A stretch of DNA of 64,000 nt from an uncultured Pelagibacteraceae bacterium (GTDB taxonomy: Bacteria; Pseudomonadota; Alphaproteobacteria; Pelagibacterales; Pelagibacteraceae), in NCBI GenBank assembly GCA_902516345.1, contig CABXYJ010000002.1, forward strand, positions 1-64,000. The letters run 5' to 3'. This document shows, one piece after another, positions 24,280-31,539 of the stretch. The stretch's first letter is position 1, and each line of letters starts with the position of its first letter. The notes under the pieces were generated by a model, which saw nothing but the letters and a program-made list of their open reading frames with translations, searched no databases and had not been told where the DNA came from. The translations under genes and the position numbers were made by a program.

Positions 24280-24365
24280 TGGTGCCCTCGGCCAGACTCG
24301 AACTGGCACTCCGCAAGCGGCAAGGATTTTAAGTCCTTTGTGTCTACCAATTTCACCACGAGGGC
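24280..24365 (-). tRNA. tRNA-Leu (TAA), intact; integration target
   Basis: Class II tRNA, acceptor GCCCTCG/CGAGGGC, anticodon loop CTTAAAA, encoded CCA. Confidence 0.96.
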
Positions 24366-24368
24366 ATT
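24326..24368. repeat. att-like repeat copy A (part of intact tRNA-Leu)
   Basis: ATTTTAAGTCCTTTGTGTCTACCAATTTCACCACGAGGGCATT. Confidence 0.95.
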
Positions 24369-24418
24369 AATGAATTTCATGAGTGTTTATGCCATTATTT
24401 ATAATTGAACAAGATGAA

Positions 24419-24468
24419 TAAGTAAATTTTTTTTATTTTATCTCTCTAGATCCGAGAATGATCCGAGA
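24419..24468. repeat. Unit 1 left subterminal repeat containing GATCCGAGA-at-GATCCGAGA
   Basis: Matches 28687-28736; 32 bp perfect core TTTATCTCTCTAGATCCGAGAATGATCCGAGA (24437-24468). Confidence 0.9.
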
Positions 24469-24509
24469 GTTGTCCTATAAAATCCTATAAGAATATATAA
24501 ATTTAAATA

Positions 24510-24881
24510 CTATCTCCTTGCGTCATCCAACCTTAATGTATCACTGAAATCTTCAGGACCTGGACTGAAACTTGAATACAATACAATAATCAAAAAGATA
24601 ATTGCTACTCCCCAATAAATTGGCCTTAATGGTTTGTGAAATTCTTCTGAGTCTTTCTCACGAGCTTCCCGAGCCTTATAAAATTCTTGTCTTTTTTGAT
24701 TATAAATTCTCTCTAATTCCTCAGTTTGTTCTTTAGTTAAAATCGCTTTTTTATCAAATGGAAAAAGGCCATCTCTTAAATTATATGGATGAAATTGTGT
24801 GAATTCTTTAACATCATCTTCACCATATATCTTGGAATTTTTAGCCTTACTTAATATTTTTTTAAATTTTTCTTTATTCAT
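24510..24881 (-). CDS. Hypothetical protein with C-terminal TM segment
   Basis: ORF track; hydrophobic IYWGVAIIFLIIVLYSSF. Confidence 0.6.
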   Translation of the reverse strand: MNKEKFKKILSKAKNSKIYGEDDVKEFTQFHPYNLRDGLFPFDKKAILTKEQTEELERIYNQKRQEFYKAREAREKDSEEFHKPLRPIYWGVAIIFLIIVLYSSFSPGPEDFSDTLRLDDARR

Positions 24882-25550
24882 TTAAAAATTTTCTACAATT
24901 ATATTTGATAATTCTGTTTTAGAAACTTGAAATTTTTTTTCAAAATGATTTGATAAATTTAATCTTTCTTCCCAATTACTAGCCCTTATTTTTTTTATAA
25001 GTTTGATTGTTTTGTCATCATATTCAAATAAGTAATATGTCTCATTCCAAGGCATTCCAAAAGCATAGCCGACATCGATAAATAACTCATCTTTTCCATT
25101 TTTATTAAGATCTTTATCTATATAAAAATTAATATTTAAATATATTCTTCTATCTTTAAGATGTTTTCTGCCTTTAAAAAAATCAGTTCTAGAGTCGTAT
25201 TTTTCCTCATTTTTATAAAACACTTTAAAATAAGTATCATTCATACCTCGGCATCCATTATTTTCGTAAAAAACCAATTTAACACTGTTGTTTATAGACT
25301 GAGTTAGAATAATTTTTTTAAACCCATCAGAATCATATTTAGTATAGTTTATAGAAGTAAATTTTTTTTTATTAAAATAAAAACAATCCCCAGACCAACT
25401 TATACGCTTATTACTAGAAGGATTTTCATCCATAAATTTAGCAGCTTCTTTGTAATTTTTATAACCATCATCAGCAAAGTCATATTCTTTAGCGAGACTT
25501 ATATTTATTGAAAGTAAGGATAATAGTAAAATAATAAAAAATTTTTTCAT
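24882..25550 (-). CDS. Secreted hypothetical protein
   Basis: ORF track; signal peptide MKKFFIILLLSLLSINISLA; abuts 24881. Confidence 0.6.
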   Translation of the reverse strand: MKKFFIILLLSLLSINISLAKEYDFADDGYKNYKEAAKFMDENPSSNKRISWSGDCFYFNKKKFTSINYTKYDSDGFKKIILTQSINNSVKLVFYENNGCRGMNDTYFKVFYKNEEKYDSRTDFFKGRKHLKDRRIYLNINFYIDKDLNKNGKDELFIDVGYAFGMPWNETYYLFEYDDKTIKLIKKIRASNWEERLNLSNHFEKKFQVSKTELSNIIVENF

Positions 25551-25569
25551 AGTTTAAACATCATTTCAT

Positions 25570-28920: not shown

Positions 28921-28991
28921 TAACTCACTTTATTTATAACTCAACCTAGTAAACAAAAGCAAATTAATATGGTGTATGACTGGTGTATGAC
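28921..28991. repeat. Unit 2 left subterminal repeat containing GGTGTATGAC-t-GGTGTATGAC
   Basis: 71 bp, no gaps, about 60/71 identical to 31322-31392 by hand count. Confidence 0.9.
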
Positions 28992-29175
28992 CCAAGTCAT
29001 CCGAGGGGTCCCAAATGGAAGTCAAAAAAGCTTAGGTTTTTAAAGGTCAATACCCTTAAATATATAAAGGGGTCCCACTACTTTCCCCTGTGTTGAAATA
29101 TTTATATTTTAAAGTTATTCTTATTAATATAATTTATAAAAATTAACTATAAAACAAATCTCTTTAACTAATCAA

Positions 29176-30465
29176 ATGTATATAAAAAAATATTATCTAC
29201 TAGCAAAACATACGCTTTTTCCAATATGCAGAAGTTTAACTGGCGATGGTTTTAGAAAATCCTTAAAAATTATAAAAAAAGAATTTCCTAAATTAAATAT
29301 ATACAAAGTGGCATCTGGAACTCGAGTCTTTGATTGGCATGTACCTCCTGAATGGAATATTAAAGATGCGTATATTTTAGATAAAAACAATAAAAGAATT
29401 ATTGATTTTAAAAATAATAATCTCCATTTAGTAGGATACTCCATTCCTGTTAATAAATATTTTTCAAAAAAAGAACTTTTTAATCATATTCATTCCTTAC
29501 CCGAGCAACCAAAAGCAATTCCATATATTACTTCATATTATAAAAAAATTTGGGGATTTTGTGCAAACCACAATGAAAAAATAAAATTAGAAAAAAACTA
29601 TAAAAATTCAGACAAATTTAAAGTTGTTATAAAATCTAATTTAGATTCAAAGGGCCATTTAAATTATGGAGAATTAATTTTAAAAGGAAAATCAAAACAA
29701 GAAATCTTAATTTCTACTTATTTATGTCATCCTTCAATGGCAAATAACGAATTGTCTGGTCCAATAGTTTCTATGTCTTTAATTAAACATTTTAGTAGGA
29801 TAAAAAATCTAGAAAAAACTATAAGATTTATTTTTATACCTGAAACCATCGGTGCAATTACTTACCTTAGTAAAAATTTAAATTATCTAAAACAAAATAC
29901 CATAGGAGGATACCTCCTAAGTTGTATTGGAGATGACAGGCAATATGGTTGTATGCTCTCAAAATATGGAAATACTCCGTCTGATAAAGCTATTATTATG
30001 GCATTTAAAAGTTTAAAAATTAAATTTAAAAAATATTCTTTTTTAAGAAGAACTGCCGATGAAAGACAATATAACTCTCCAGGGATAGATTTACCAATAG
30101 CATGTATATATAGATCAAGAGATGGTGCATACCCTGAATACCATACATCATTAGATAATTTTAGTTTAGTAACTGAAAGTGGTGTTAAAGGTGGTTTTAA
30201 AGTTGCTAAAACAGCAATTAATATACTCCTTAAAAAAATCATACCCCAAAATAAAATTTTGTGTGAACCAAAAATGGATAAAAGAAATCTTTACCATTCA
30301 TTATCAACAAAAAAAATAAAGAAAATTTATCAACATTATTTGAATTTTTTACAATATGCTGATGGAAAAAATGATTTAGAGAGTATTTCTATTTTATTAA
30401 ATATTAAGATAAGTTTAGCATATAAAATATATAATGTTTTAAAAAAGAAAAAATTGGTCCTTTAA
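29176..30465 (+). CDS. DUF4910-like/aminopeptidase-fold protein
   Basis: LFPICRSLTGDGFRKSL, RVFDWHVPPEWNI, STYLCHPSMANNELSGP, RRTADERQYNSPGIDLP, EYHTSLDN. Confidence 0.8.
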   Translation: MYIKKYYLLAKHTLFPICRSLTGDGFRKSLKIIKKEFPKLNIYKVASGTRVFDWHVPPEWNIKDAYILDKNNKRIIDFKNNNLHLVGYSIPVNKYFSKKELFNHIHSLPEQPKAIPYITSYYKKIWGFCANHNEKIKLEKNYKNSDKFKVVIKSNLDSKGHLNYGELILKGKSKQEILISTYLCHPSMANNELSGPIVSMSLIKHFSRIKNLEKTIRFIFIPETIGAITYLSKNLNYLKQNTIGGYLLSCIGDDRQYGCMLSKYGNTPSDKAIIMAFKSLKIKFKKYSFLRRTADERQYNSPGIDLPIACIYRSRDGAYPEYHTSLDNFSLVTESGVKGGFKVAKTAINILLKKIIPQNKILCEPKMDKRNLYHSLSTKKIKKIYQHYLNFLQYADGKNDLESISILLNIKISLAYKIYNVLKKKKLVL

Positions 30466-30466
30466 A

Positions 30467-31324
30467 ATGAAAATTCTATCTCATAAATTTTTTAATTCTA
30501 AAAAAGAAACTAGTTATTATTCTCAATTATATAAAAAAATTAATTTTAAAGAATCTTATCCAGCAGATGTAAAAAGACTGGAAATCTTTAAGTCACTTAT
30601 AAAGAAACATAAACCAAAAACTATAGTTGATGCCGGATGTGGAGCAGGTATGCCATTAATTCAAATAAAAAAAATGGGATTTAATATTACTGGTTATGAT
30701 AAAGCAAAAAATATGGTTAATGAAGCAAAGGCAAATTTAATTAAATATAAACTCCCAGAAAAATTAATTGATATTGGGAATTTTGAAAATCCAAAGCATA
30801 TAAAAGATAATTCAATAGATTGTATTTTGGGTATGGGAACTTTCTATTACTCAAAAAATTTTATCCAAACATTAAAAAACCAAAGAAAAAAACTAAAAAA
30901 AAATGGAAGATTAATTTTTTCATTGAGAAATCAATTATTTGATATTGCTACTTTAAATGATTATTCAATTAAATTTTTTTCAAATTTATATGAAATAAGC
31001 AAAACTAAAAATACATTAAAAAAAAAATATTTAAGATTATTTCAAGGATATTCTGATAGAAAAAAATTTAAATTAAAAAACATTGATGACAGCCAAGTTT
31101 ACTCTAAAACATATAATCCTCTCACAATTGAAAATCTAATTTTGAGTAAAGTAGGACTAAAATGTAATGGAATATATTTTTATCACTTTCACGCCTTGCC
31201 TCCAATATTTGAAAATATTGATAAAATTAATTTTAGAAAGCAATCTTTCAAGATTGAAAAACCAAATGACTGGAGGGGTTTTTTTATTGCCTCTGGTTTT
31301 GTCATTGACTGTCAAAAAAAATAA
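30467..31324 (+). CDS. Class I SAM-dependent methyltransferase
   Basis: TIVDAGCGAGMPLIQIKKMGFNITGYDKA; 1 bp after the preceding gene. Confidence 0.85.
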   Translation: MKILSHKFFNSKKETSYYSQLYKKINFKESYPADVKRLEIFKSLIKKHKPKTIVDAGCGAGMPLIQIKKMGFNITGYDKAKNMVNEAKANLIKYKLPEKLIDIGNFENPKHIKDNSIDCILGMGTFYYSKNFIQTLKNQRKKLKKNGRLIFSLRNQLFDIATLNDYSIKFFSNLYEISKTKNTLKKKYLRLFQGYSDRKKFKLKNIDDSQVYSKTYNPLTIENLILSKVGLKCNGIYFYHFHALPPIFENIDKINFRKQSFKIEKPNDWRGFFIASGFVIDCQKK

Positions 31325-31392
31325 CTCGCTTTATTTATAACTTAACTTGTTAAATTAATACAAATTAATTCGGTGTATGACTGGTGTATGAC
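31322..31392. repeat. Unit 2 right subterminal repeat containing GGTGTATGAC-t-GGTGTATGAC
   Basis: Direct copy of 28921-28991, starts at the stop codon of the methyltransferase gene. Confidence 0.9.
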
Positions 31393-31518
31393 TTTTGTCT
31401 TATTATCTTTTGCTTCCATAACTATGAATATAATTATGACAAACTAGATAACTAGGAATTACAATGGTTCTGGGTCGCCAGGGGTCAGTGAGGTTTTCTT
31501 AAATTCTCTTGATAGAAT

Positions 31519-31539
31519 ATTTTAAGTCCTTTGTGTCTA
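31519..31539. repeat. att-like repeat copy C (21 bp core)
   Basis: ATTTTAAGTCCTTTGTGTCTA identical to the first 21 bp of copies A and B, then diverges. Confidence 0.85.

Follow-up and report, generated by a model that had tools for sequence, protein, structure and literature searches.

Tycheposons of Prochlorococcus are reportedly marine, tRNA-targeted, cargo-carrying elements, and VEIMEs are said to be small marine phage-parasitizing elements that have tyrosine recombinases and occur in viral particles. SAR11 bacteria are among the most abundant marine cells, and their streamlined genomes are thought to be poor in mobile elements. Additive flexible genomic islands, or tRNA-direct-repeat cassettes, are described in excerpts of reports on Actinomarinales (PMC7771536) and Methylophilaceae (PMC10872708), and miniature inverted-repeat transposable elements (MITEs) and clusters of attC sites lacking integron-integrases (CALIN arrays) have been discussed as hitchers that arise by recombinase loss (PMC11389934). 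Here we analyse two tandem insertions (units 1 and 2) at the tRNA-Leu(TAA) gene of an uncultured SAR11 bacterium of the family Pelagibacteraceae, located in positions 1 to 64,000 of contig CABXYJ010000002.1 (assembly GCA_902516345.1; this whole 64-kb stretch is referred to as the window), and compare them with genomes of the same genus. We read such units, with a probability of roughly 0.83, as derivatives that have no integrase of their own and are mobilised in trans by cognate satellite-like elements, the paired repeats (arms) near their ends forming a diversified code.

Stacked insertions at tRNA-Leu(TAA)

The target gene, predicted by ARAGORN at 24280..24365 on the minus strand, is read leftward, which places the insertions 5' of it; every insertion supplies a new 5' half, and unit 1 is the source of the present one and of the promoter side. 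The sequence ATTTTAAGTCCTTTGTGTCTA occurs exactly at 24326, 28861 and 31519 of the plus strand (0.01 copies expected by chance, as estimated by shuffles). Allowing as many as 3 mismatches gave no further copy within the window, and allowing as many as 2 gave none in the rest of the 930-kb assembly. The core common to the relatives is 20 bp long, displaced copies varying at the first base. On the plus strand, core copy A (24327..24346), in the anticodon arm, marks the tRNA-proximal junction of unit 1, copy B (28862..28881) the junction of units 1 and 2, and copy C (31520..31539) the outer end, after which the host's own tRNA half has been lost. Copies A and B are identical across 43 bp (24326-24368 and 28861-28903), with the displaced tRNA 5' half supplied by unit 2 at 28882..28900 (plus strand). 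Copy C consists of the 20-bp core only. In relatives, the core is followed by the displaced host half and its flank and, ~130 bp on, by TGTCTAAGTAGGAC, or in other relatives by TGTCTAGGTAGGAC, which belongs to the same conserved stretch. The TGTCTA that ends core C in the window (31534-31539) is joined directly to GGTAGGAC. Copy C thus apparently fits a deletion of ~130 bp between two TGTCTA sequences (microhomology), which would have reduced it to the bare core.

The core is present in 115 of 151 same-genus genomes, often as two or three tandem copies. We oriented the loci of 60 relatives on the tRNA, which gave 61 loci with the window and 54 units between neighbouring cores (window counted); two more loci raised this to 57 units of 267 to 8806 bp. 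Most of the 61 loci have armed ends adjoining the tRNA; 12 look empty, with one core and without recognisable arms. An earlier note, made from the letters of the window, had proposed three identical core copies, the 43-bp identity of A and B and a stack of small integrative elements, and had suggested comparing occupancy at the nadK/tRNA-Leu locus. All of this is borne out: empty, single, double and triple states are present, and extra cores come with extra, variable DNA. Neither situation that the note had named as fatal to its proposal was encountered, as loci without inserted DNA have a single core (no repeats persisting without the inserted genes) and the inserted DNA, including the gene content adjoining the tRNA, varies between relatives.

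One element recurs in three genomes, with 99.3% nucleotide identity over 2.4 kb between two of them (L117 and L127) and 96% in the third (L098), while the nadK-tRNA region is 86.1% identical between the former and 78.5-78.9% identical to the latter. This difference (96-99% against 78-86%) indicates, at the level of sequence identity, that the elements spread horizontally. In L098 the recurring element sits behind a second unit, an instance of single versus double occupancy.

Two other arrangements were seen at tRNA-Leu. In L040 (8520-8800) ~160 bp separate the anticodon-stem half from the core and look like an intron or other insertion; L114 (1467-2518) and L132 (1470-2537) carry a further element type of other geometry, with arms ACTACACTAG at +102 and -76.

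Matched repeat pairs at the unit ends

Absent from the earlier note are subterminal repeat pairs, which in the window are identical between 24450/24461 and 28718/28729 and between 28971/28982 and 31372/31383. In unit 1 the pair AG-ATCCGAG-AATG-ATCCGAG-A lies at 24448..24468, 123 bp from the core, and again at 28716..28736, giving the code ATCCGAG four times; in unit 2 the pair GGTGTATGAC-T-GGTGTATGAC lies at 28971..28991 and 31372..31392, giving the code GGTGTATGAC four times (all plus strand). Near each end, a typical unit carries two ~8-bp repeats with a period of 11 bp, at +123 bp from the near core and ~145 bp before the far core. The repeat sequence differs between units and matches between both ends of one unit: all four repeats are identical in 35 of 42 units, and 19 distinct 7-mer codes occur among these 42 units, which have the pattern NNNCNNG. 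The repeat pairs look like arm sites of a tyrosine integrase.

For the first repeat, near/far agreement at its three most variable positions is 0.98-1.00 within units versus 0.32-0.38 between units, in a register chosen by imposing C and G at two fixed positions. A control position, the second of the spacer, gave 0.38 within versus 0.36 between units (no excess), and covariation of the bases flanking the repeats (-1 and +10) was weaker. When offsets were fixed without the imposed C and G, 0 of 20,000 permutations reached the near/far match; within far-end classes, the numbers were 0 (alpha), 11 (beta) and 53 (gamma) of 20,000. We did not retain as evidence of exclusion the observation that stacked neighbours always differ in code (10 of 10), chance sharing being only ~5%. 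L112 (1410-3945) and L130 (1417-3930) carry similar cargo (77% over 2.1 kb) with differing arm codes and far-end classes, which suggests that cargo and code are exchangeable.

The best surviving alternative, which we nevertheless hold to be improbable, is that the units are dead relics, old satellites or prophages without an integrase that are reshuffled only by homologous recombination at the ~40-140 bp repeats around the cores. The missing integrases, the homology supplied by the repeated tRNA halves and promoter flanks, the composite look of L131 and the decayed copy C would all suit it. It does not account for arm pairs that keep exact distances and are the same at the two ends of most units, or for near-identical elements at differing stack positions in diverged genomes; nor does decay alone predict that integrase-less units far outnumber autonomous ones.

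Putative helper elements and their integrases

A phage-integrase domain search returned one integrase inside a tRNA-Leu unit (L106, matching PF00589). L033 and L036, IMG/VR contigs of 15.5 and 15.8 kb, each have a single core, matching arms on both sides of it and a 515-aa integrase, and their gene orders are circular permutations of one another. L036 encodes a DUF5906 primase, a resolvase-like nuclease and a single-stranded DNA-binding protein; of its scanned proteins, none was recognised as a virion component. Its integrase was not recognised by Pfam or PHROGs, the helper integrase had no match among INPHARED phages, and no Pfam arm-binding domain matched the helper integrases. Relatives of the integrase were found in 8 of 399 genomes of the genus, in six viral contigs and in five SAR11 contigs, and in five viral versions the far arm begins 29 nt inside the integrase gene. 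Similar elements with their own matching repeats occupy other tRNAs (tRNA-Ser in L176, another tRNA in L184).

No intact integrase is encoded among the proteins of unit 1 or unit 2. The earlier statement that neither unit has a recognisable integrase needs a qualification for unit 2, which retains a 25-codon integrase-like stub, MEAKDNKTKVIHQSYTELICINLTS* (31342..31419, minus strand), antisense across the far arm pair and close to METKTKKTSKVAHQLPK of the L033 integrase; against four of six integrases its score was reached by 0 to 4 of 1000 shuffles. A short open reading frame (ORF) occupies the equivalent place in several beta units. We read the stub, on this resemblance, as a remnant of a deleted integrase. 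The suggested search of the host for a tyrosine recombinase did return one, of ~300 aa, in the 77% complete assembly; it has no arm domain and no match to the helper profile and was rejected as a helper, which leaves the assembly with no cognate helper integrase. Mobilisation in trans, also proposed in the note, would fit a host of this kind together with an integrase found in rare relatives and in viral contigs of the same core and arm layout.

The only candidate for a non-autonomous element in IMG/VR was L015, set aside as a probable chimera or phage insertion. At 4970-5129 of this PhoH-bearing, T4-like viral contig a near end (arm ATGTACAGGTCATGTACAGG, tRNA half, core) abuts a phage-like gene start, which points to an element within a pelagimyophage or else to a chimeric contig.

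Co-change of the integrase N-terminal domain and the arms

The L033 and L036 integrases are 97% identical after residue ~126 and 53-56% identical in the N-terminal domain; their arms differ (GGGCAAC and GGGTAAC), while the surrounding attachment-site (attP) DNA is 87-95% identical. The same was observed in L189 and L190, 8.8-kb elements with 89.9% overall identity, whose integrases are 95% identical elsewhere and 57% in the N-terminal domain, with arms GTACTGG and GTGCTGG. As the change in this pair is independent of that in L033/L036, it constitutes a second case of domain and arms changing together. For L182 and L183, which share one code, the N-terminal domain is 69% identical versus 80% elsewhere. 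The model of this domain (predicted local distance difference test score 76.8) has two short helices, four strands and one helix, and its top three PDB matches are arm-type binding domains of P4-like integrases (3ju0, 3jtz and 3rmp); the model of the helper integrase matches XerH and lambda Int. Judged by these models, the helper integrase would combine an N-terminal arm-binding fold with a catalytic domain. In mobile-element recombinases, the N-terminal part that varies is known to be the arm-binding domain (PMC8138268).

These observations also bear on the possibility that the repeat pairs are operators or replication iterons rather than integrase arms. Paired short repeats one helical turn apart suit repressors and initiators as well, and the variation of the repeats between elements would agree with this; it is nonetheless very unlikely, given that the pairs stand at both ends, at a fixed distance from the crossover site, in units without common genes, that the far pair of the helpers lies in the start of the integrase gene and that the arm-binding fold changes with the repeats. 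Least probable of all is mobilisation by pelagiphage integrases that use the same tRNA-Leu core, for although one pelagiphage is known to have a tRNA-Leu attP (PMC3861242) and many viral contigs have an identical-core attP, several with an apparent integrase end beside it, none of 15 phage attP sites with this core has paired 11-bp-period arms, which led us to reject phage integrases as helpers, and those integrases that do have matching arms come from a different type of element, without any recognised virion gene. Two viral contigs (L008 at 10177 and L023 at 830) carry a near-complete tRNA-Leu(TAA), with one anticodon-stem base changed, next to the core.

Organisation of the two units

The near flank of unit 1 (24347..24430, plus strand) comprises the tRNA 5' half and ~60 bp of upstream region, and at 24366-24430 it is the same tRNA-upstream flank as in relatives. 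Alpha, beta and gamma elements seem, from such flanks, to have captured the host tRNA promoter; delta elements supply their own. The near arm pair is followed by a conserved near-side box, TCCTATAAAATCCTATA (24473..24489, plus strand), and by the cargo (24510..28600, minus strand), seven ORFs at 24510-24881, 24882-25550, 25570-26010, 26130-27158, 27164-27511, 27508-27732 and 27806-28600. The product of 26130-27158 is a GIY-YIG protein (T5orf172/MUG113), the others have no confident Pfam family, and the ORF at 27806-28600 is present in 2 of 250 genomes, the host counted. A class-gamma far box, AGAGACCATTAGAGACTCTAAAATTCCTCAACTCAAACTA (28822..28861, plus strand), adjoins core B.

All further features of unit 2 are on the plus strand. 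Two GGGGTCCCA boxes (29005..29077) are common to the integrase-bearing element of genome G202 (SAG-MED01), which also shares the TGGGTCGC..GGGTCAGTGAGG box of the far side. The cargo encodes a DUF4910/DUF2172/HTH_47 protein (29176..30465), present in 62 of 399 genomes, and an S-adenosylmethionine-dependent methyltransferase (30467..31324), and a class-delta far box, TGGGTCGCCAGGGGTCAGTGAGG, lies at 31471..31493.

Proposed mechanism

The architecture, the differences in occupancy, the horizontal spread, the near/far covariation and the co-change of domain and arms are read directly from the sequences. A unit would retain what is needed in cis, namely the 20-bp crossover core in the anticodon arm of tRNA-Leu(UAA), a replacement 5' half with promoter, which would restore the tRNA, and an arm pair at each end. 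After entry of a helper element or of its integrase into a cell, the N-terminal domain of the integrase may read the arm code and the remainder of the protein the core, and elements with a matching code would integrate into, or be excised from, tRNA-Leu. Each arrival would rebuild the tRNA and displace the older unit outward, building a stack (in the window, presumably unit 2 first, then unit 1). The helpers would be rare satellite-like elements of ~8-16 kb with an integrase, a DUF5906-type primase, a resolvase/PDDEXK-like nuclease and, in some, a single-stranded DNA-binding protein, and the cargo units deletion derivatives of them. Arm code and arm-binding domain would diversify together while core and catalytic domains stay constant. 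Protein-DNA binding, mobilisation in trans and the route between cells are the steps that we infer.

Several points weigh against this reading. Beyond the register imposed on the agreement values, the permutations are phylogeny-aware no further than the within-class test, and the ends of L131 (1465-3384) are mismatched (near CGTCTAG, far CTTCTAG), probably as a composite left by deletion between two elements. Near-identical integrase pairs number two only, the fold matches of the N-terminal domain are weak by E-value (0.004-0.009), though the top three agree, the helper profile found no match in the host assembly (77% complete), many of the genomes compared are incomplete, and integrase-less units were not seen as excised circles.

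In most of the genomes sampled, this common small type of integrase-less element turns over at a single tRNA, and it crosses species. A more specific proposal, for which we see about even chances, is that of a helper-specificity code: a single attachment site would serve many cargo elements and rare helpers with diversified arm codes, and helpers would switch code through changes confined to the arm repeats and the arm-binding domain. The cargo that a helper moves would then depend on the code, and numerous elements could occupy one tRNA without excising one another; it would be possible to predict from sequence which helper belongs to a given cargo, and the helpers would provide a natural series of integrases with constant core and varying arm specificity. 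Literature searches returned no report of arm codes.

Comparison with described systems

The likeness to tycheposons, suggested in the earlier note, holds for integration at a tRNA gene and for the tyrosine recombinase and primase of the autonomous relatives; on the other hand, the units of the window lack the recombinase that defines the family and replace the 5' half of the tRNA, and tycheposons are not known to have matching arm codes. For the units, the name is only an analogy. Contigs of the L033/L036 type (15.5-15.8 kb), which represent the helpers here as IMG/VR entries, fit the VEIME kind, whereas the cargo units have no recombinase at all. Temperate pelagiphages at tRNA-Leu use the same core, but the units have no integrase or phage genes and the phage attP no arm pairs. 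P4-like satellites share the integrase-primase logic and the fold of the arm-binding domain (3rmp, 3ju0, 3jtz), but sequence similarity is very low and the window units have no integrase. Like MITEs and CALIN arrays, the units appear as derivatives that have lost autonomy, retain their recombination sites and depend on mobilisation in trans; unlike them, they have site-specific tRNA insertion and arm-type accessory sites in place of transposon ends or attC. For additive flexible genomic islands, the excerpted reports describe no arm sites, helper integrases or near/far covariation, but they do describe cassettes located at tRNA genes of streamlined planktonic bacteria and ended by tRNA-fragment repeats, and the units here likewise vary between genomes, sit at a tRNA and each end in such a repeat.

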